Below are positions 2,671-55,005 of a DNA stretch of 64,000 bases, one piece after another (the stretch's first letter is position 1; each line of letters begins with the position of its first letter). The position numbers and the translations under genes are program-made. The DNA comes from an uncultured Verrucomicrobiota bacterium (GTDB lineage Bacteria > Verrucomicrobiota > Kiritimatiellia > CAIQIC01 > Lenti-01): the NCBI GenBank assembly GCA_937872095.1, contig CALMNW010000101.1:62001-126000 (forward strand). Reading direction: 5' to 3'. Under the pieces are notes generated by a model. That model had not been told where the DNA came from and did not search any database. It was given only the letters and a program-made list of their open reading frames with translations.

Positions 2671-5555
<2,885 letters not shown>

Positions 5556-28786: not shown

Positions 28787-29638
28787 ATGAATCTGCAGTT
28801 TGTCCATGCCCAGCTTGCCCGCGTCGTCTGGTCCGGCGGCGGCTACTCCCTCACCCTCGGCGCGCTGCTCCTGGCGCTCGCGCTGATCGTCGGCGGCGGA
28901 CTGGCCGCCCGCCTCGTCGCCCGCTTCCTGGGCAAGCGCCTGCCGGCCCACCTCCGCCAGTCCCGCCACGCCCAGGAACTCGCCCCGCGCAGCATCTTCT
29001 TCATCGTCTGGGCCCTCTTCCTTCTGGCGGCCCTGCGCGCCCTGGGCATCCCGCTCACCGCCTTCAACTTCCTCGGCGGCGCCATCGCCCTCGGCTTCGG
29101 CTTCGGCGCCCAGAACCTCTGCAGCAACCTCATCAGCGGCGCCATCATCCTCGTCGCCCGCCCCTACAAGGTCGGCGACATCGTCGAGGTGGACAGCATG
29201 GCCGGCACGGTCCTCTCCATCGGCCTGCGCGCCACCGAAGTCCTCACCTACGACGGCGTCAACCTCCTCGTCCCCAACTCCAACTTCCTCGCCAACACCA
29301 TCGTCAACCGCACCAACTACGACCGCTCCCTCCGCGGCCTCGTCACCATTTCCGCCGCCTACGACGCCGACTCCCGCCTCGTCGACGAAACCCTCCGCGC
29401 CGCCGCCGCCGCCCACCCCGCCGTCATCCAGACCCCCGGCAAGGCCCCCTGGGTCATCTTCGACAACTTCGGCGACAGCGCCCTCGAGTTCAAGCTGTTC
29501 TTCTGGGTCGACACCACCCGCAACAACGTCGCCGCCACCGCCAGCGACGTCCGCCACGCCGCCCTCCTCGCCTTCCGCGAGAAGCGCATCGCCATCCCCT
29601 ACCCCCAGCTCGACGTCCACCTCCCCAAGGCCCCATGA
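28787..29638 (+). CDS. MscS-family mechanosensitive channel
   Basis: This 283-aa membrane protein opens under membrane tension to release solutes. It has three hydrophobic segments. The third, FLGGAIALGFGFGAQNLCSNLISG (about residues 96-119), is the Gly/Ala-rich pore helix. It is followed by the MscS beta domain: ARPYKVGDIVEVDSMAGTVL, and LLVPNSNFLANTIVNRT, where P-N-S/x-x-F is a family mark. The C-terminal alpha/beta vestibule is present, so the subunit is complete. A 31-base-period repeat array starts 13 bases after the stop. Confidence 0.94.
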   Translation: MNLQFVHAQLARVVWSGGGYSLTLGALLLALALIVGGGLAARLVARFLGKRLPAHLRQSRHAQELAPRSIFFIVWALFLLAALRALGIPLTAFNFLGGAIALGFGFGAQNLCSNLISGAIILVARPYKVGDIVEVDSMAGTVLSIGLRATEVLTYDGVNLLVPNSNFLANTIVNRTNYDRSLRGLVTISAAYDADSRLVDETLRAAAAAHPAVIQTPGKAPWVIFDNFGDSALEFKLFFWVDTTRNNVAATASDVRHAALLAFREKRIAIPYPQLDVHLPKAP

Positions 29639-29650
29639 CCTCCCTCGGCC

Positions 29651-29836
29651 GGGAATCGCGGCTCATCCGTTTTCCACGCCGTGGAAAACTTTTTTCCACA
29701 CCGTGGAAAAATTCGCGAAAGTTTTTACGTAGCGTGGAAAAATCGGCCAAAGTTTTTACGTGCTACGTAAAAATCGCCCAAAGTTTTTACGTAGCGTGGA
29801 AAAATCGTTCAAAGTTTTTACATAGCGTGGAAAACG
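29651..29836. repeat. 31-base-period tandem repeat array, copy 1
   Basis: The array opens with GGGAATCGCGGCTCA (29651-29665). Units of the form GTGGAAAAAT or ACGTAAAAAT, then CG-variable-CAAAG, then TTTTTACGTAGC begin at 29703, 29734, 29765, 29796 and 29827, exactly 31 bases apart. A shorter first unit begins at 29681. Each unit is itself close to a hairpin; the one starting ACGTAAAAA is a perfect stem. A second array with the same opener and period lies at 46372-46495. Confidence 0.9.
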
Positions 29837-29858: not shown

Positions 29859-31610
29859 ATGCTGCGCCTGATTCCAACCCCAACCCGCCTGCACCCGCTC
29901 GGCGGAACCTGCGCTCTGCCCTCCCCGCCAACGGCTTGCGTCCCCGACCATCTCGATCCGCGCGTCGCCAAAGTCCTCCACGAACTCTTCCCCGGCCTGC
30001 ACCACGTCGCCTGCCGCGAGCCAAACGCCGCGATCCGCCTCGAATCCGCGCCCGGCGCGGCCGAATCCTACCGGCTCCGCATCGCGCCCGATGGCCTCCG
30101 CATCGCCGCCCCCGACGCCCCCGGCTTCTTCTACGCCCTCCAGACCCTCCGCCAAATCCGCGCGCAGTCCGACGGCGACCTACCCTGCTGCGAAATCGAA
30201 GACGCCCCCGTCTGGCCGCTGCGCGGCTTCTATCTCGACGTCAGCCGCGGCCGCGTCCCGCGCCTCGACCTGCTCAAGCGCCGCGTCCGCCTGCTGGCCT
30301 CCCTCAAGATCAACCACCTCCAGCTTTACTTCGAACACCCCTTCCGCTTCCGGTTCGATCCCGCCATCGCCGGCGACAACGATGCCTACGACGCCGACGA
30401 CCTGAAGGCCCTCGACGCGTTCTGCCGCGAGCGCTTCGTCGAACTCGTCCCTTCCTTCACCTGCTTCGGCCACCTGGGCCGCATCCTCTCGCTGCCGGCC
30501 TACCGCGATTTGGCGGAAAAGGAATTTCCCGCTCCCTCGTGGGAAGCCGCCACCTGGCTCCAGCGCCTGCGCGGCTGCACCATCCATACCCGCGATCCCG
30601 ATGCGCAGGAATTGCTGCGCAAGATCCTCGCCGAATTCCTGCCGTGCTTTTCGTCGACGCGCTTCAATCTCTGCGGCGACGAAACCTACGACCTCGGCCG
30701 GCGCACGCCGGACGCGACGCCCGCCGATCTCGCCCGCCAGTACGTCGACCACGTCCGCTTCCTCCAAAAGGAAGCCGCGCGCCACGGCAAGTCGCTCATG
30801 CTCTGGGGCGACGTGCTGCTCAAGCACCCCGACGCCATCTCCGCGCTGCCCGCCGGCTGCGAAATCCTCGACTGGGCCTATTTCCCGACGAACCGTTTCG
30901 AAAAGTGCGGCGAATTCATTTCCCGCGGCCGGCCCACGATCGTCTGCCCGTCCGTGCGCGGTTTCGGCCGCGTCTTCAACGCCGTCGAGGAAGCGCGCGA
31001 CGTGCTGTCGCGCTATGCCCGCACCGGCCAGGAACTCGGCGCGCGCGGCCTGTTCAACACCGATTGGGGCGACTACGGCCACTTCAACATGCCGCCCTGT
31101 TCCCTTCACGGACTCGCCCTCGGCGCGCAACTCGCCTGGAACCCCGCCAACGACGAAGGCGCCGATTTCGACCGCGCCTTCTCGAAAATCGTTTTCGGCG
31201 CGAACGACGCGCGCCCCGCCGAACTGTTCTCGCTCGCCGGCTCCGTCCCCGAAGCCGCCGCCGCGTGGCCCTTCGCGCCGCTGAAAAACATCCCGCCGCC
31301 GGCCGATCCCGCCCCCTTGCGGCAAATCGCGGCTCAAGCCCCAATCTGGGCGGAGGAATTTTCCAAGCTCCAGGCCACCGAATGGGCCGATGAAACCGAC
31401 CACGCGCAGCTCGCCCTCGCCTGCCGCTTCCTGCAATTCGGCGCGCTCGTCGCTTCCGGCGCGCCCGCCGCGCAGACCCGCCCGCTCCTCGACGAACTCG
31501 AAAAAGCGACCGCCCCCCTCTGGTTCGCCGAAAGCCAACCCCGCGGCCTGCTCGACCTCCACGCCCGCGGCTTCGAGCCCATGAGATTATTGTTGGAGAA
31601 TCGACCATGA
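29859..31610 (+). CDS. Glycoside hydrolase family 20-like beta-hexosaminidase
   Basis: The 583-aa protein has the GH20 pattern. A small N-terminal alpha/beta domain ends PDAPGFFYALQTLRQI. The TIM barrel starts PLRGFYLDVSRGRVP, and the catalytic Asp-Glu pair is in FNLCGDETYDLG (D274-E275). Such enzymes remove terminal N-acetyl-hexosamine by substrate-assisted catalysis. No signal peptide is seen, so it is probably cytoplasmic. The region between barrel and C-terminus is helical. The gene overlaps the next one as ATGA. GH20-related enzymes of other specificity cannot be excluded. Confidence 0.85.
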   Translation: MLRLIPTPTRLHPLGGTCALPSPPTACVPDHLDPRVAKVLHELFPGLHHVACREPNAAIRLESAPGAAESYRLRIAPDGLRIAAPDAPGFFYALQTLRQIRAQSDGDLPCCEIEDAPVWPLRGFYLDVSRGRVPRLDLLKRRVRLLASLKINHLQLYFEHPFRFRFDPAIAGDNDAYDADDLKALDAFCRERFVELVPSFTCFGHLGRILSLPAYRDLAEKEFPAPSWEAATWLQRLRGCTIHTRDPDAQELLRKILAEFLPCFSSTRFNLCGDETYDLGRRTPDATPADLARQYVDHVRFLQKEAARHGKSLMLWGDVLLKHPDAISALPAGCEILDWAYFPTNRFEKCGEFISRGRPTIVCPSVRGFGRVFNAVEEARDVLSRYARTGQELGARGLFNTDWGDYGHFNMPPCSLHGLALGAQLAWNPANDEGADFDRAFSKIVFGANDARPAELFSLAGSVPEAAAAWPFAPLKNIPPPADPAPLRQIAAQAPIWAEEFSKLQATEWADETDHAQLALACRFLQFGALVASGAPAAQTRPLLDELEKATAPLWFAESQPRGLLDLHARGFEPMRLLLENRP

Positions 31611-35454: not shown

Positions 35455-36285
35455 ATGAAAACGATGTGTCTGTTTTTGTGCCTGCTCGCCCTGTCGGCTT
35501 TCGCGCTCGCTCCGGCGGCTTCCGCCGAAAACGAAGCGTGGTACTTCCCCGACGGCCTGCTCTACGTCCCCTACGTCCAGATGTTGGACGGCGCCGGCGA
35601 CGTCGTCACCAACTACGCGGCCTTCTTCCGGAGAACCGGCACCGGGTGGAACTTCAGGCTCTACGGCGCGTCGGGCGTGGCCGCCCAGTCCAACTCGGTC
35701 GGAACGAACTACGTCACCAGCACCATCACCAACTACACCACGATCAGCAATTACGCCTTCGTCACCAACTACATCAACGTCACGAACATCTACGACGACA
35801 CCAACTTGGTAAGCGCCACCACCAACTTCGTGAGCGCCACCACCAATTTCGTGATCACGACCAACGTCGCCATCACGACCAACATCGTCGTCGTGACCAA
35901 CGTGCCCCCGCCGGCGCCGTCCGACGTGGCCGGCACCTGGAATTTCACCTTCTTCGAAGCCTGGTCCCGCACCTATGCGCCAACCGGATTTGGTCAAACC
36001 GTCAATATGACCCCCACCTCCACCAATTGCACGCTGACGCTGACCCAGGACGGGGCGGACGTCGAGGGCACGGGCACCGTCAACTCCATCCAGTATTCGC
36101 TGACGGGCGAGGTCACCAACGACTTCTTCGTCTTCACCATGCTGGCCGGTACCGCGGATTCCAAGATCACGCTTGCCGAAGTCCGGGCCCTCGTGGGCGA
36201 CGACGTCATGGTCGGCGACTACTCGTGGAGCACCACCAACGGCATCAAGGTCCAGATCGGCGATTTCTCCGCCTATAAGGAGTAG
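35455..36285 (+). CDS. Secreted TN-repeat protein, copy 1
   Basis: This 276-aa exported protein has a signal peptide (MKTMCLFLCLLALSAFALAPAASA, mature start ENEAWYFPDG). An opening domain (about 25-75) contains YVPYVQM and is followed by a Thr/Asn/Val-rich stretch of about 70 residues made of TNYV/TNFV/TNIV units. A C-terminal beta-rich domain (about 155-276) has LTLTQDGADVEGTGTV and NDFFVFTMLAGTAD. It is unknown to me. The repeat stretch includes an exact 21-base direct duplication (35813-35854 region). A paralogue lies just downstream. The start at 35455 is set by alignment of the promoter with that paralogue. Confidence 0.75.
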   Translation: MKTMCLFLCLLALSAFALAPAASAENEAWYFPDGLLYVPYVQMLDGAGDVVTNYAAFFRRTGTGWNFRLYGASGVAAQSNSVGTNYVTSTITNYTTISNYAFVTNYINVTNIYDDTNLVSATTNFVSATTNFVITTNVAITTNIVVVTNVPPPAPSDVAGTWNFTFFEAWSRTYAPTGFGQTVNMTPTSTNCTLTLTQDGADVEGTGTVNSIQYSLTGEVTNDFFVFTMLAGTADSKITLAEVRALVGDDVMVGDYSWSTTNGIKVQIGDFSAYKE

Positions 36286-44909: not shown

Positions 44910-45614
44910 ATGGCCAAGCCCCCCCTGAAAGCCTGCGTCCTCATCCCCGCCTACAACGAGGAAAAGCGCGTCGGCGCCGTCGTCCGCGAAACGCTCGAGT
45001 ATTGCCCCGACGTGGTCGTCATCGACGACGGTTCGCCCGACGACACCGACCGGGCCGCCGCGGAAGCCGGCGCGACCGTGCTCGAGCACGTCCACAACCA
45101 GGGCAAGGGCGCTGCCCTCCAGACCGGCTTCGACTACGCCCGCGAGCACGGCTACGACCTCGCCATCACCATGGACGCCGACGGCCAGCACGCCCCCTCC
45201 GACATCCCTGCTTTCCTCCAGGCCTACGAGCGCACCCACAGCCCCGTCCTCGTCGGCAACCGCATGGGCAACGTCGGCGCCATGCCCCCCCACCGCCGCT
45301 TCGTGAACCGGTTCATGTCCGACCTGCTTTCCCGCGTCATGGGCCAGTACGTTCCCGACAGCCAGTGCGGCTTCCGCCTCTACCACCGCTCCGCCTTCCC
45401 CGAAGGCCCCTACGACGCCCATTCCCAGCGCTTCGCCGCCGAATCGGAAATCCTCCTGCGCCTGTCCCTCCAAGGCCGCAAGATCGGCGCCGTCGTCATC
45501 CAGACCATCTACGGCGACGAAAAAAGCAAGGTCCACCCCTTCTTCGACACCATCCGCTTCTTCCGCATGCTCCACCGCTTCCGCAAAATCAAAAAGGAAT
45601 ATCTTTCCCGATGA
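44910..45614 (+). CDS. Family 2 glycosyltransferase (dolichyl-phosphate-sugar synthase-like)
   Basis: The 234-aa enzyme has the GT-A signature: CVLIPAYNEEKRV at the N-terminus, VVVIDDGSPDDTD, HNQGKGAALQTGFDYA and the metal-binding ITMDADGQHAPSDI. PDSQCGFRLYHRSA follows, as in polyprenyl-phosphate mannosyl/glucosyltransferase-like GT2s. It lacks membrane helices at its C-terminus. It begins 5 bases after the phosphotransferase gene and overlaps the export-protein gene as ATGA. Confidence 0.93.
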   Translation: MAKPPLKACVLIPAYNEEKRVGAVVRETLEYCPDVVVIDDGSPDDTDRAAAEAGATVLEHVHNQGKGAALQTGFDYAREHGYDLAITMDADGQHAPSDIPAFLQAYERTHSPVLVGNRMGNVGAMPPHRRFVNRFMSDLLSRVMGQYVPDSQCGFRLYHRSAFPEGPYDAHSQRFAAESEILLRLSLQGRKIGAVVIQTIYGDEKSKVHPFFDTIRFFRMLHRFRKIKKEYLSR

Positions 45615-46357
45615 AACGCCTGCTCGCCCTCGCTTTCGGCCTGGTCCCCGCCCTCGTTTTCGCCGTTCCGGAAACCGCGAACCGTGAACCGCTGAACCTT
45701 GAACCCCAAATGCTCGAACGCGCCAGCGCCGCGGCCGCCGTCGAAGTGCCCCATAAAAGCACCGGCCAGAAGGTCGCCGAATTCCTCCGCGGCAAGGGCC
45801 TTTCCAAGGATGCCGCCATCATCGCCATCTCCACCCTCCCCATCGTCGAACTCCGCGGCGCGATTCCCGTCGGCCACGTTCTCGTTCCCGACTCCGACAA
45901 GTCCACGCGCCTCGGCCGCGACGATCTCAAGCGCTCCGCCCGCATCTTCTTCTACGCCATCCTCGGCAACATGATTCCCGTTCCCTTCATCCTCCTGCTT
46001 CTGGGCCCCATTTCCCGCCTCTGCATGAAAGTGCCCCTCGGCAAGCGCTTCTTCGATTGGCTCTTCGCCCGCACCCGCCGCAAGACCGCCGACATCGAAA
46101 AATACGAAACCCTCGGCCTGACCGTCTTCGTCGCCATCCCCCTGCCCGCCACCGGCGCTTGGACCGGCGCCATGGCCGGCTGGCTCCTCGGCATGAGCTT
46201 CGCCCACTGCATGCTGTCCATTTTCCTCGGCGTCCTCATCGCCGGCGTCGTGATGACCGCCCTGTCCCTCCTCGGCTGGATCGGCGCCGCCATCGCCGGC
46301 ATCGTCCTCCTCGCCTTCTTCCTCGGCGTCCTCGCCAAGGCCCTCCAGAAGAAGTAG
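45611..46357 (+). CDS. COG2426-type small membrane export protein
   Basis: The 248-aa protein begins with a signal-like helix and has the family block STLPIVELRGAIPVGHVL (about residues 79-96). ILGNMIPVPFILLLLGPIS and FVAIPLPATGAWTGAMAGWLLGM follow, together with two C-terminal helices. It is usually annotated as a putative small multidrug export protein, but the substrate is unproven. Residues of about 22-34 (ETANREPLNLEPQ) are encoded by a GAACC-type repeat that also occurs at 83-110, apparently inserted in frame. A 31-base-period repeat array follows the gene. Confidence 0.85.
   Translation: MKRLLALAFGLVPALVFAVPETANREPLNLEPQMLERASAAAAVEVPHKSTGQKVAEFLRGKGLSKDAAIIAISTLPIVELRGAIPVGHVLVPDSDKSTRLGRDDLKRSARIFFYAILGNMIPVPFILLLLGPISRLCMKVPLGKRFFDWLFARTRRKTADIEKYETLGLTVFVAIPLPATGAWTGAMAGWLLGMSFAHCMLSIFLGVLIAGVVMTALSLLGWIGAAIAGIVLLAFFLGVLAKALQKK
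45679..45706. repeat. GAACC-type repeat within coding sequence
   Basis: Tandem units GAACCG, TGAACCG, CTGAACC, TTGAACCC. It shares TGAACCGCTGAACC and TTGAACCC with the run at 83-110. It stays in frame in the export-protein gene. Confidence 0.6.
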
Positions 46358-46371
46358 CCCCCTCCCGGGCA

Positions 46372-46495
46372 GGGAATCGCGGCTCAAAGTTTTACGTACT
46401 GTGGAAAACTTTTTTCCACACCGTGGAAAAATCGGCCAAAGTTTTTACGTGCTACGTAAAACTCGACGAAACTTTTTACGTTCTACGTAAAACTT
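46372..46495. repeat. 31-base-period tandem repeat array, copy 2
   Basis: It opens with the same GGGAATCGCGGCTCA (46372-46386) as the array at 29651. Units begin at 46401, then 46423 (22 bases later, exactly as in copy 1), then 46454 and 46485 at 31-base steps. The first two units are GTGGAAAA-type and the last two ACGTAAAA-type. The array lies between the ends of two convergent genes. Confidence 0.9.
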
Positions 46496-46508: not shown

Positions 46509-49500
46509 TCAGGGCCCGGCCGGGGCCGCTTCGGCGGGGGCCCCGCGCCGCAGAACCGTGGCCACTTCGGCTTGCCCGGCGGCCACGGCCAGATCCAGCG
46601 CGGTCTGGCCGGCGGCGTTCGTGGCGCTCTCGTCGATATGCGCGTTCATCAGGGCCTTCGCGCACTCGGCGTAGCCGTTCAGCGCGGCATGGTGCAGCGG
46701 GGTCATCCCGTTTTCGTCCCGCACGCCGAGATCGGCGCCGGCTTCGATCAACAGCCGCGCCGTCTTCGCACAGCGTTTGACATGGATCTGGCGGAAGCTC
46801 CGCATGTGTTCGTTTTCGCCGGGTTCGCGCCGGACCACGTCCAGCAGCAGCAGTGGGCTGCCGCCCTCTTCCGGCCGGACCGCCGCGCCCAGGCGCAACA
46901 GGTAGGGAATCTTCCAGCTCGACCAAACGCTGGCGGCGTGGCGCAGGATCGTGGTGCCGTCGGCCCGCGGCGCGTTCAGGTCGGCGCCGTGCGCCAACAG
47001 CACCGGCACGACGTTGGTGGCCCACTGGTTGAGCGCCATCTCGAGCAGGCTCTCGTTGTCGCCGTCGACGGCGCAGGGATCGGCCCCCTCCGCCAGCAAG
47101 CGCTCCGCGGCTTCGGGATCGTCGTCGGAGACCGCCGCATGCAGGGCCGCCTCCTGCACGCACCGGCGCGACAGCGGCACGCGCACGTCGTTGTGCACGT
47201 CCCAATCGTTCGTCAGGCAAACGACCACGGGATCGTCCAGCCGCGACGCCGAAGCGAAGCGATAGCAACCGGCCACCAGATTCCGCAGCGCAAACGAGCC
47301 ATCCGTCTCCGTCCAAAACTCCACGCCTCCGCCCGAATCGTTCGTGCCGCCGGCCTGCCGTCGAACCTGCAGGACGACGTTCCGCAACGGGGCGCCGGCT
47401 TCGTCCACGACCATGCCGCGGATGGTCCCGCCGGGCTTGGGCGCGGTCAGCGTGCCCGGCGCGCCCTGCGCGCGCAACGCGTCGGTCACTTCCGGCCGGT
47501 TTTCCCAAACGGCCTCGTCCAGCGGCGTCCGGCCCCAGCGGTTGGTTTGCGCCAAATCGGCGCCGGCTTCGACCAGCTTCAACGCGATGGCCTTGTTCCC
47601 GTTCTCGCAGGCCAGATGCAGCGCGGTACAATCCATGTGGTCGCGCAAGCGGACGTCCGCCCCCGCCTTCAGCAAGAGATCGAGGTTGCCGGACTGCCCT
47701 TTCCTGGCGGCGATCATGAGCGGCGTCTGGCCCCAGCGGTTGGTCGCATCGACCTGCGCCCCCGCTTCCAGCAGGGCCAGCAGGTCGCGGGGCTGCTCCG
47801 CGGCCGCCGCATCGTGCAACGGAACAACCCCGCTTTTCGGGTCCCGCGCGTCCGGATCCGCCCCTTGCTTGAGCAACTGGGCGACGGACCCGTCGCGGGA
47901 CGCACGGAAATGGAGCAACTTCCAATCGGGATCGCCGGCGCCGCGGATCTGGAAATCCACGTTTTCGATCGTTTCGTCGCGATTCGAGAGCACGACGGTT
48001 TTCCAAGTTTCGTCGTCGTAGCCCAGTAGAACGCGATAGGTGCCGAGTTTCAATCCATCGATGAAATAGCGGCCATCCCGGCCGGACACGCCAAAGCCGG
48101 ATTCCTCCAGCTCTCCGCCATCGAGATAACAGCGCACCGACTCGCCCGCGATCGGCGCGCCGTTTTCGTCCCGGATCGTGCCGCTCAAGCCTCCCAGCGC
48201 TTTGGATTCCGTCACGGTACCGGGCGCCTCTCGCGCGCGCAGTTGTTGGACCACCTTCTCGCGTCCTTCCCAAACGGCGACGTCCAGCGGGGTGCGGCCG
48301 GCCTGGTTGGTCGCATCCAGCTTTGCTCCGGCCGCGAGCAACCGCGCAACGATGTTCGTGTCGCCCCGCCAGCAGGCGACGTGCAGGGCCGTCGCGCCTT
48401 CCGGGTCCGCCGCATCCACCTGGGCCCCGGCATCCAGCAACGCCTGGACCGTGTCCGCTTCTCCGTTTTCCGCCGCGATCATCAGCGCGGTCTGCCCAAG
48501 GGCATTGGTGTGGTTGGGATCGACCCCGGCTCGCAACAGGTCCGCGACGAACGGCAGGCCCATCTGGAGATGGAACCCATACGCCAGATCGAGCGCCGCG
48601 GCACGCGTGCAATGCAGCACCGCGTTAGTGACGGCGGAATCCGGCTCGGTCAACGCCGCCGTCCACAAAATCCCGGGCTGCGACAAGACGCGGACGCGAT
48701 ATTCGCCGGGCTCCAGACGCGCGAAAAGAAAACGTCCGTCCGTTTCGGTAATCTCCAAAGGATCCTGCAGGCGGGGTTCCTCCCCGGCCGAACATTGCAA
48801 GGGGATGCGCGGCAGCGGCTGGCCCTGCTCGTCCAGCAAAACGCCGCTGATCGTTCCGCGCGGCGGCAGCTCCAAATGGCTCGGTTGGGCGCCGTTTTCC
48901 AGCAAGAAGGCCACGACATTGGTCTGGCCGCAGCGCGTGGCCAAATCCACGGCGGTGAAGCCCGCCGCATCGACGGCATCCACCCGCGCTCCGTTTTCCA
49001 CCAAGGCCCGGAGCCCGTCCAATTGGCTGGCAAATTGGGCCTGCCGCATCAGCAAGGTTTGGCCTTGGCCGTCGACGGCGTTCACGTCGGCCCCCTGCGC
49101 CACCAGTTCCGCGATCCGATTCGCATCGAGCCGCCCGAGCGACGCCAGCAATTTCTGGGTCGGCACCACGCCTTTTCCGATCCGCAGCAGCGGCATTTCC
49201 GCCTCGGGCGTTTCCGGCGACAGTTGCGCGACCAACACGGGATTCGACGCCATGCCGAGGATCGCGACGGCCAACGGACAAGGTTCCACGGACGGGAAGA
49301 AATAGGCGCCCTCCGCATCGGTCTTGGTCTGGCGATAGATTTTGCCGCGGGTATCGTTCAGCCACGCCAGTTCCACCTCGAGATCCGGCACCGGCCGATC
49401 GTTTTCATCGACGATCCGGCCGCGCACGGCCCCGGGCGGCGGCGCGAGCAGATCGTTGGTCGATGCGCCGTGGTCGAGCAGATAGGCCGCCATGTCCGGC

Positions 49501-50138
49501 AACCGACGCCACAAGGCGTGTTCATAGGGGGTCAGGGCGGCCGTGAACGGCGAATCGACCATGCCCCGCTGGTAGCGTTTGCGGCTTTCGGCGGCCGGCA
49601 CCACGTCGATTTTCGCGCCGCCCTCGACCAGCGCCTGCACCACGCCCAAACCGGATTTCGCCGCGGCCTGCACCAACAGAGATGCCGGCCAGTCTTCCTG
49701 ATTGGGATCGGCTCCGGCCGCGATCAACTCCCGGATTTCCTCGACGCGGTCTTTCCAAACCGCCCGCCGCAACCGCCAGTTCAGATCCGCTTGGCGCGAA
49801 ACCGGCACCCGCAGATCTTCCAAGACCATCCGGCCCGTGGTCAATTCGACCGCGAGCGGCTCGCTCCCCTCGCCCATGCCGTGGATCTCATAGGCACCCG
49901 CCGGCAACCCGGTGAATTCGAAATCCAACTCGGCATCCGCCGGCCGCACGTAGTTTTCGGATTCCGTCGAACGGTAGTATTTTTCGCCGGTCAGCACGAT
50001 GGCCGCCTGCGCGAGGCGGTTCCCCTGTTCGTCCACCGCGATGCCCCGGACGACGCCGGTTCCCTCCGGCTCGGATGCCAGGACCCATTCCGCCGCCCAA
50101 ATGGCCGCAAAAATCAGCAGTCTGCCAACGGGCTTCAT
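46509..50138 (-). CDS. Exported multi-module protein: carboxypeptidase-regulatory-like folds alternating with ankyrin repeats
   Basis: The 1209-aa protein starts with a signal peptide (MKPVGRLLIFAAIWAAEWVLA). It alternates five times between a beta-sandwich CRL/CnaB-like domain and ankyrin repeats. The CRL openings are GVVRGIAVDEQGNRL (about 28), GAVRGRIVDENDRPV (about 240), GTISGVLLDEQGQPL (about 434), GGLSGTIRDENGAPI (about 655) and GTIRGMVVDEAGAPL (about 893). Each is followed by 3-6 ankyrin units such as NALGQTALMIAAENGEADTV. There is no membrane anchor or sorting signal at the C-terminus. A binding or adhesion role is plausible but unproven. Its start overlaps the 63-aa gene as ATGA. Confidence 0.88.
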   Translation of the reverse strand: MKPVGRLLIFAAIWAAEWVLASEPEGTGVVRGIAVDEQGNRLAQAAIVLTGEKYYRSTESENYVRPADAELDFEFTGLPAGAYEIHGMGEGSEPLAVELTTGRMVLEDLRVPVSRQADLNWRLRRAVWKDRVEEIRELIAAGADPNQEDWPASLLVQAAAKSGLGVVQALVEGGAKIDVVPAAESRKRYQRGMVDSPFTAALTPYEHALWRRLPDMAAYLLDHGASTNDLLAPPPGAVRGRIVDENDRPVPDLEVELAWLNDTRGKIYRQTKTDAEGAYFFPSVEPCPLAVAILGMASNPVLVAQLSPETPEAEMPLLRIGKGVVPTQKLLASLGRLDANRIAELVAQGADVNAVDGQGQTLLMRQAQFASQLDGLRALVENGARVDAVDAAGFTAVDLATRCGQTNVVAFLLENGAQPSHLELPPRGTISGVLLDEQGQPLPRIPLQCSAGEEPRLQDPLEITETDGRFLFARLEPGEYRVRVLSQPGILWTAALTEPDSAVTNAVLHCTRAAALDLAYGFHLQMGLPFVADLLRAGVDPNHTNALGQTALMIAAENGEADTVQALLDAGAQVDAADPEGATALHVACWRGDTNIVARLLAAGAKLDATNQAGRTPLDVAVWEGREKVVQQLRAREAPGTVTESKALGGLSGTIRDENGAPIAGESVRCYLDGGELEESGFGVSGRDGRYFIDGLKLGTYRVLLGYDDETWKTVVLSNRDETIENVDFQIRGAGDPDWKLLHFRASRDGSVAQLLKQGADPDARDPKSGVVPLHDAAAAEQPRDLLALLEAGAQVDATNRWGQTPLMIAARKGQSGNLDLLLKAGADVRLRDHMDCTALHLACENGNKAIALKLVEAGADLAQTNRWGRTPLDEAVWENRPEVTDALRAQGAPGTLTAPKPGGTIRGMVVDEAGAPLRNVVLQVRRQAGGTNDSGGGVEFWTETDGSFALRNLVAGCYRFASASRLDDPVVVCLTNDWDVHNDVRVPLSRRCVQEAALHAAVSDDDPEAAERLLAEGADPCAVDGDNESLLEMALNQWATNVVPVLLAHGADLNAPRADGTTILRHAASVWSSWKIPYLLRLGAAVRPEEGGSPLLLLDVVRREPGENEHMRSFRQIHVKRCAKTARLLIEAGADLGVRDENGMTPLHHAALNGYAECAKALMNAHIDESATNAAGQTALDLAVAAGQAEVATVLRRGAPAEAAPAGP

Positions 50139-53677: not shown

Positions 53678-54073
53678 GTGAAAAACAACCTGTTACCTCT
53701 CGTCCGGAAACTTACCGTTCTGCTGCTCCTGGCGCTTCTGGCGGGGTGCGGAGGCGGCGACGACGGAGAAAGCCTGGACTATGCCGGCAACTGGCAAGGC
53801 CGGACGTCCAACGGCGGCACCATCGTTTTCACCGTGCAAGGCAATCTGGTCGTCTCCCTGCGCCTCGTCGATCCGCAAGGCGTCATTTGGTTCCCGCAGC
53901 CGACGGATATCCAAGGAAATTCCTTTTCCGCCGAATACGAGACCGACACCGCCGCCACCGACTTCGTTTCCCTCGATTGCACGTTCGGCTCCATCAACCA
54001 GGCGACCGGCAGCTATTCGATGCGCAAGGGCAGCAGCGTCTTGACCGGTACGTTCTCCGCCCAGCACCCCTAG
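53678..54073 (+). CDS. Small lipoprotein of unknown function
   Basis: The 131-aa protein starts at GTG (VKNNLLPLVRKLTVLLLLAL). It has a strict lipobox, LLAGC, then GGGDDGESLD as an acidic spacer. The mature part (YAGNWQGRTSNGGTIVFTVQ onward) is beta-rich, like small lipocalin/META-type domains, but I cannot name the family. It shares the idea of a 'GTW/GNW...T' opening with the C-terminal domains of the TN-repeat proteins, without clear homology. It has its own promoter and is followed by the lipid kinase after 11 bases. Confidence 0.75.
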   Translation: MKNNLLPLVRKLTVLLLLALLAGCGGGDDGESLDYAGNWQGRTSNGGTIVFTVQGNLVVSLRLVDPQGVIWFPQPTDIQGNSFSAEYETDTAATDFVSLDCTFGSINQATGSYSMRKGSSVLTGTFSAQHP

Positions 54074-54084
54074 GTGTCCGGGCC

Positions 54085-55005
54085 ATGAAGCCCAACCGAC
54101 AGGAAAACGAGCCGCGCAACATACGCGTGCTGGTAAATCCGAAATCGGGGTTGGGCACGTCGTTCGATTCGTTCTGGGGTCTCATCGAGAAATCGTTCGG
54201 CCCGCAGGGCGCCGACCTGACCTACCAGTTCAGCCACGACGTCGTCGATGGTTGCCGCAAGGCCGAGCGCGCGGTGCGCGACGGCGTCGATGCGATCCTC
54301 GTCGCCGGCGGGGACGGGATGGTCAACAGCATCGGCGGCGTGCTCGTCGGCACGCCGGTCGCCCTCGGGGTGATCCCCACGGGCAGCGGCAACGGCTTCG
54401 CCCGCCATTTCGGCATCCCGCTCGACGTGGCCGGAGCCGCGCAGGCCCTGGCCCGCGCGCAGCGAAAAACCATCGACGTGGGCACGGCCAACGGACGCCC
54501 CTTTTTCGTCACCTGCAGCCTGGCGTGGGACGCGGCCATTGCCCGCGGTTTCGAAGCCTTCCCGTTCCGCGGCATCGCGCCCTACGTCTTCGCCGCCGCC
54601 GCCGAACTGATCACCTACGAGAACCAACCCATCCACGCCTCCCTCGACGGCGGCCCCGTCCAGATCTTTTCCAACCCCATTCTGTTCACCGTCGCCAACC
54701 TCACCCAATACGGCGGCGGCGCGCAGATCGCGCCGAAGGCCCGCCCGGACGACGGCCTCATGGAACTCGTCGTGGCCCTCCGCCCCGATTTGCCGCTGTT
54801 GCTCATCAACATCGCCCGGCTTTTCAACGGCACGCTCGACCAGTTGCCCCAAGTCGCCACCCGCCGATTCCGCACGCTGGATCTCCATCGCCACAAAGCC
54901 ACGCCCATCCAGCTCGACGGCGAACTCGTGGATGCCGGACGCGACGTCGAAATCCGCCTGCTCCCGAAAGCCCTCGCGGTGCTGGCGCCCGAGAAAGCAA
55001 AATGA
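54085..55005 (+). CDS. Diacylglycerol/lipid kinase (DgkB/YegS family)
   Basis: The 306-aa soluble enzyme phosphorylates diacylglycerol or a related lipid. The nucleotide-binding opening is RVLVNPKSGLG (about residues 14-24), followed by ILVAGGDGMVNSIGGVLVGT (G-G-D-G-T-type motif with Met in place of Thr) and LGVIPTGSGNGFARHFGIP. The beta-sandwich C-terminal domain includes ITYENQPIHASLDGG and PDDGLMELVV. The ATG is at 54085; the stop overlaps ogt as ATGA. Confidence 0.93.
   Translation: MKPNRQENEPRNIRVLVNPKSGLGTSFDSFWGLIEKSFGPQGADLTYQFSHDVVDGCRKAERAVRDGVDAILVAGGDGMVNSIGGVLVGTPVALGVIPTGSGNGFARHFGIPLDVAGAAQALARAQRKTIDVGTANGRPFFVTCSLAWDAAIARGFEAFPFRGIAPYVFAAAAELITYENQPIHASLDGGPVQIFSNPILFTVANLTQYGGGAQIAPKARPDDGLMELVVALRPDLPLLLINIARLFNGTLDQLPQVATRRFRTLDLHRHKATPIQLDGELVDAGRDVEIRLLPKALAVLAPEKAK

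Follow-up and report, generated by a model that had tools for sequence, protein, structure and literature searches.

What is the short A/T-rich array that follows an MscS-like channel gene in this genome, and does it belong to a mobile element, a regulatory signal, or a larger family of repeats? The question arose from a first-pass annotation of the window, which is the whole 64,000-nucleotide stretch analyzed here and lies on contig C101 of G000, a draft genome of 3.33 Mb in 102 contigs. That annotation described a repeat of exact period with a fixed opener, recurring 16.7 kb away, and thought of it as an ordered dispersed element that might co-vary with a protein gene.

Phased palindromes in the window and in its genome

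The array is genuine and above chance, and the original observation is confirmed. The right-hand half-units start at 29703, 29734, 29765, 29796, and 29827, exactly 31 bp apart as had been proposed. The last half-unit reads GTGGAAAACG and is therefore off the consensus given for the unit. We also recovered the copied opener (GGGAATCGCGGCTCA is exact at both 29651 and 46372, 16,721 bp apart) and the 22-bp first step of each array (29670 to 29692, and 46390 to 46412). The A/T-rich composition is real, with GC contents of 39% for array 1 and 37% for array 2 versus 66% for the window. TRF found array 1 independently (score 168), and two words of the array, GTGGAAAAA and TTTTTACGT, each have six copies in the window where 0.41 and 0.07 are expected. 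Elsewhere in the window, TRF reported short tandem repeats with periods of 21 and 18 inside a predicted gene (35799-35903).

The natural unit is a palindrome composed of TTTTCCAC or TTTTACGT, three bases (NNN), and GTGGAAAA or ACGTAAAA. Array 1 is therefore made of six units (29670-29834) and array 2 of four (46390-46492). Steps between the six 19-bp sites of array 1 are 22, 31, 31, 31, and 31 bp. Positions are collected in Table 1, in which the genes were called with a simple codon-score caller.

Table 1. The two arrays of the window, their palindromes, and the genes beside them
Feature	Positions	Strand	Remarks
MscS-like mechanosensitive channel gene	28787..29638	+	PF00924, PF21082; array 1 follows its stop codon
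Opener	29651..29665	+	GGGAATCGCGGCTCA; separate dispersed intergenic motif, frequently though not invariably next to arrays
Palindrome P1	29670..29688	.	TTTTCCAC-GCC-GTGGAAAA
Palindrome P2	29692..29710	.	TTTTCCAC-ACC-GTGGAAAA; 22 bp past P1
Palindrome P3	29723..29741	.	TTTTACGT-AGC-GTGGAAAA, half-sites mixed; 31 bp past P2
Palindrome P4	29754..29772	.	TTTTACGT-GCT-ACGTAAAA
Palindrome P5	29785..29803	.	TTTTACGT-AGC-GTGGAAAA
Palindrome P6	29816..29834	.	TTTTACAT-AGC-GTGGAAAA; final unit of array 1
Glycosyl hydrolase family 20 (GH20) gene	29859..31610	+	Starts 24 bp past the end of array 1
Sm_multidrug_ex membrane protein gene	45611..46357	+	PF06695; upstream of array 2
Opener, second copy	46372..46386	+	Exact GGGAATCGCGGCTCA
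Array 2	46390..46492	+	Palindromes at 46390, 46412, 46443, 46474; steps 22, 31, 31
Ankyrin-repeat protein gene	46509..50138	-	Far side of array 2; convergent with the Sm_multidrug_ex gene

The initial description of an ordered dispersed element, as opposed to low complexity, was right and understated. The genome holds many more copies than these two: a genome-wide search revealed a large dispersed family, with an architecture that extends across the class. The repeat unit, TTTTnC-N7-GnAAAA, is a dyad-symmetric site of 19 bp. We counted 369 sites in G000 (TTTTMCRYNNNRYGKAAAA, at most one mismatch) and none with the reversed control; sister species have 138-323 sites per genome. The density is about one array per 43 kb, as estimated from 12 arrays in 514 kb (three large contigs, sampled in full or over long stretches). 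Among 57 arrays of one to six sites in 0.8 Mb of G000, steps of 31 bp occur 90 times and steps of 22 bp 44 times, along with a few of 30, 32, and 23 bp and one of 43 bp. The 22-bp step is always terminal (46 of 46, in arrays of G000 and G001 with at least three sites), and some arrays in other genera are fully symmetric (22-31-...-31-22). Given that 22 and 31 bp are close to two and three helical turns, the numbers suggest that the dyads face the same side of the DNA.

Within the dyads TTTT, C6, G14, and AAAA are nearly invariant, and the frame TTTT..C..G..AAAA is constant across the class. Half-sites of the CCAC and ACGT types pair up nearly at random within G000. Pairs 5-15 and 7-13 match in 61-62% of cases versus 54% after shuffling, and the inner pairs match at chance level. 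This near-random combination implies that base pairing between the halves is not what is kept, and it favors the reading of a double-stranded dyad over a conserved hairpin. The features of a CRISPR array are absent, as the spacers are 3 or 12 bp long with shared sequence and the neighbors tested are ordinary genes. No Rfam match exceeded the gathering score between 28000 and 48000 of the window, and searches of Rfam, a plasmid collection, and the literature by core sequence returned nothing relevant.

The opener did not hold up as a fixed part of the array. The exact 15-mer GGGAATCGCGGCTCA has four copies in the genome and lies beside 3 of 52 sampled arrays. The related GGGAATCGCGG falls within 60 bp of 11 of the 52 and has many copies elsewhere; the motif occurs mostly without arrays. 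G001 has GGGAAGGCGCC in the opener's place, likewise mostly away from arrays. The opener is a neighbor of the array, not part of it, and is a genome-specific dispersed motif. We recorded 40 copies of GGGAAGGCGCC in 0.8 Mb of G001 (L217-L256, e.g., G1_C29:280111 and 397242); 16 of these have an ATG about 10 bases downstream or nearer, as a genome-specific gene-start motif. At L060, L062, L146, and L157, CAAAGTTTTT links array ends to another dispersed repeat, GCCGCTCCGCTCGCGGAGCCTCGCTCGCTCGCCGCGC.

Most arrays in G000 (54 of 57) are intergenic, and they are located at the 3' ends of genes. Pooling two genomes and taking gaps of 100 bp or more for comparison, we found an excess of arrays in convergent gaps (16 of 66 array gaps versus 17 of 309 others; p=1.7e-5, OR 5.5) and a deficit in divergent gaps (7 of 66 versus 107 of 309; p=5.5e-5, OR 0.22). 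Array polarity is independent of gene strand. A role in replication polarity of the KOPS kind was considered and rejected: polarity and GC skew are unlinked in G000, with a weak lean only in G001. Rearrangement breakpoints were also considered and set aside, as the higher share of non-syntenic array gaps (3 of 11 versus 7 of 95 others) is suggestive, not significant, and confounded by the draft assembly. At three G000 arrays (C14:87275, L165:3342-3619, and L167:12608) the left and right flanks map apart in sister species; these may be rearrangement points or draft mis-joins. A predicted coding region contains one four-site array (L180:903-1016, about 42903-43016 of C101 in G000) that is missing from the orthologous stretch of G001 and is possibly an in-gene insertion.

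Distribution and turnover across the class

To follow the family beyond this genome we used a core-free pattern of two dyads 31 bp apart. It detects this 31-bp architecture in 77 genomes among the 346 of the class; controls are 0 throughout, and the highest count is 387 pairs. In the same order, 26 of 27 relatives are positive (with a single match in G008 and in G023), and subsets of several other families in the class are also positive. None of the approximately 257 genomes from other classes of the phylum had more than one match, the level of a chance pair. Cores differ from genome to genome: TTCCAATGATTGGAA in G011, TTCCAAGGCTTGGAA in G017, TTCCATGCCATGGAA in G051, and TTACGTTCCACGTAA in G006.

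Many array positions are shared among species. At the MscS/GH20 site, an array is present in all seven genomes of the genus, including all six sisters, each with its own core. In G003 and G004 the upstream gene is different and the array still adjoins the GH20 gene; in G001 and G005 the contig stops at or shortly past the array. At a second site (L167) the array is kept in four of five genomes, being present in G001, G002, and G006 and absent from G004. Two further array sites are common to G000 and G001, and many other arrays are unshared. A mixed ACGT/GTGG unit has 85 copies in G000 (a count that takes in this mixed unit alone), compared with 5 in G003, a single one in G006, and zero in 14 further relatives. 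The near-absence of the mixed unit from relatives, despite several shared array positions, indicates that units change together genome-wide. The core is particular to each genome, and this holds at orthologous sites too. In orthologous gaps without arrays, no empty site with a clean join and a target duplication was found, so that mobility of the arrays themselves is conjectural.

Insertion-sequence-like ends at arrays

Contig ends that fall at arrays stop in three multicopy insertion-sequence-like ends. We read 20 junctions, a sample in which most array-bearing ends were first met via the array search and which comes from a draft assembly whose contigs break at repeats. End A (...TCACACGCTTTCGGACATTCCC) joins AAGTTTTTACGT, or AAAAACTTTG on the other side; the two kinds of junction, read in different copies, fit an 8-bp duplication of AAGTTTTT. 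End B (...TATGGGACGGTA or ...TGTGGGATGATA) joins the half-site GTGGAAAA, and recurs at the same position in the sister species G002. End C (...AAACGGGACAGCCCTG) joins the palindrome centre. Entry is at AAGTTTTT in the spacer or at the palindrome centre. At the level of junctions, three distinct insertion-sequence-like elements, known by their ends alone, enter arrays at set positions.

We surveyed 80 contig starts, with C55 counted in and 60 read blind: all 15 starts with such an end adjoin an array, whereas the 65 others have none. Blind start C21 is a new case of an element end at an array. The blind start C40 carries the end-B-like word GGGACGGTA and then GTGG, but has no array. Arrays account for a sizeable share of the contig breaks in the G000 draft. 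The first bases of three short G000 contigs (C3, C46, and C58; 2.1-2.9 kb) read as N.

Likeness to REP elements and alternative explanations

Our best reading is that these extragenic palindromes form a new family that resembles REP/BIME elements but is untagged, and for which we infer a binding protein and a copying mechanism. The array in the window is probably one member of this dispersed non-coding family, working like REP/BIME elements. REPs lie between unidirectional and convergent genes and carry a GTAG/CGTC tag (PMC3733652), flank RAYT genes (PMC2817692), and are targets of insertion sequences, with ISPsy8, ISPa11, ISPpu9/10, and ISRm19/22 entering REP palindromes at set positions (PMC1525189). 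Shared with them are short palindromes that number hundreds per genome and form regular clusters of genome-specific sequence (PMC3733652, PMC2817692, PMC1525189). Against the more than 100 copies per genome that characterize REP/BIME elements, G000 has 369; the arrays are extragenic, mainly in unidirectional and convergent gaps; and insertion-sequence targeting, common though not obligatory in REPs, is seen here at the 20 junctions and in 15 of 15 census cases. Unlike REP/BIME elements, however, these are near-symmetric A/T-rich 19-bp dyads with fixed 22/31-bp phasing, the 22-bp step being terminal only. No GTAG/CGTC tag was found beside the sites, where the flanks consist of an A/T tract and a variable spacer, and no RAYT gene is flanked by the array palindromes: among 24 Y1_Tnp loci in seven array-bearing genomes, 23 have no array and one has an array on one side. 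Because both defining marks of REPs, the tag and RAYT flanking, were looked for and not found, we name the family REP-like, not REP. REPINs are similar in their paired palindromes and within-genome populations of related short repeats (PMC3116915), but a REPIN is an inverted doublet of tagged REPs whereas the array here is open-ended and has no RAYT link. Compared with known REP-targeting insertion sequences, three different ends, known as ends alone, share one repeat family here, outside Proteobacteria. No earlier description of such arrays was found in the literature searched.

On this REP-like reading, the sites would be read as double-stranded dyads by a putative dimeric DNA-binding protein, either of the host or a transposase. 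Units could be copied between arrays by recombination or gene conversion, or through the trans action of a transposase, and such copying would homogenize the units within a genome. Tolerance at gene ends may let the arrays persist, as may their usefulness as bound sites or harmless landing pads.

The alternatives invoke either a mobile element or a direct function. No protein gene was found to co-vary with the copies. The distribution of the RAYT/Y1 transposase, the obvious candidate, does not follow that of the arrays, and all-against-all clustering of the proteins of 1273 genes revealed no family enriched beside arrays; no transposon-end arrangement and no recurrent adjoining gene accounts for them. 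It is very unlikely that these are classical REP/REPIN elements mobilized by a RAYT (Y1) transposase coded elsewhere in the genome. Y1_Tnp genes do occur in most array-bearing genomes, and in G001 about 260 bp separate one Y1_Tnp-like gene from a symmetric array with steps of 22, 31, 30, and 22 (L266, G001:C2, about 53855-54420). That locus is the sole case of 24, however; arrays occur without a Y1 match in G010 (whose draft is 86% complete) and are missing from G038 and G036 despite many Y1 matches there, and the tag is absent. We regard as highly improbable a non-autonomous transposon (MITE) with the opener as its terminal repeat and the arrays as internal or subterminal sites. Some arrays do lie between inverted opener copies (GGGAAGGCGCC...GGCGCCTTCCC in G001, GGGGAATCGCGGC in L172), but paired arms score barely above swapped flanks (means of 8.17 versus 7.86, and 8.78 versus 8.21), the motif is mostly without arrays, and neither a clean target duplication nor a recurrent neighbor gene family was seen.

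Among functional explanations, bidirectional terminators or insulators, in which the P1 hairpin followed by the P2 T-run (GTTTTCCACGCCGTGGAAAAC TTTTTT) halts RNA polymerase both ways, would fit the convergent excess and divergent deficit, a terminator-like call at 29669-29689 to which P1 and the T-run of P2 conform, and RNA folding z values of -5.9 and -3.3 on the two strands. We nevertheless think this quite unlikely: one array per about 43 kb covers a few per cent of gene ends, the additional 31-bp units are unneeded, polarity is unrelated to gene strand, and half-sites mismatch freely within the genome, so that hairpins are not conserved. Somewhat more credible, if still unlikely, is that function came first and the dyads are binding sites of a nucleoid, segregation, or chromosome-organizing protein, selected at gene ends, with the repeats shifting together as the specificity of the protein drifts. 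The sites of Noc, SlmA, and MatP are comparable dispersed short palindromes read by a dimer; they are single, not phased arrays, and we know of no sequence turnover in them between species of one genus. Phasing of the dyads by near-whole helical turns, the frame that is invariant across the class, retention at the MscS/GH20 and L167 sites, and dispersal over contigs all support such binding sites. Against them are the many arrays unshared between G000 and G001, a copy number that varies between 0 and 387 pairs in a single class, and the lack of any consistent polarity relative to GC skew in G000. We offer tentatively, as a doubtful possibility, a class-specific chromosomal system in which a dimeric protein would read phased TTTTnC-N7-GnAAAA dyads at gene ends and co-evolve with them, insertion sequences having independently adopted the mark. 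If this were true, a whole genome would switch its core (CCAC/CCAT to ACGT) and array positions would stay.

Returning to the REP-like reading, such repeats have been described as tagged palindromes, many of them tied to RAYTs; the present family is without both marks and comes from another lineage. The habits it shares with REPs are gene-end placement, genome-wide homogenization, and insertion-sequence targeting, and it allows a test of whether these habits require RAYT. The fixed 22/31-bp phasing and the invariant dyad provide a handle for finding the protein that may read the sites. A three-dyad array also occurs on a single contig of a viral collection (L305; IMGVR_UViG_3300035698_006241, 3428-3506), which may be host contamination or a provirus.
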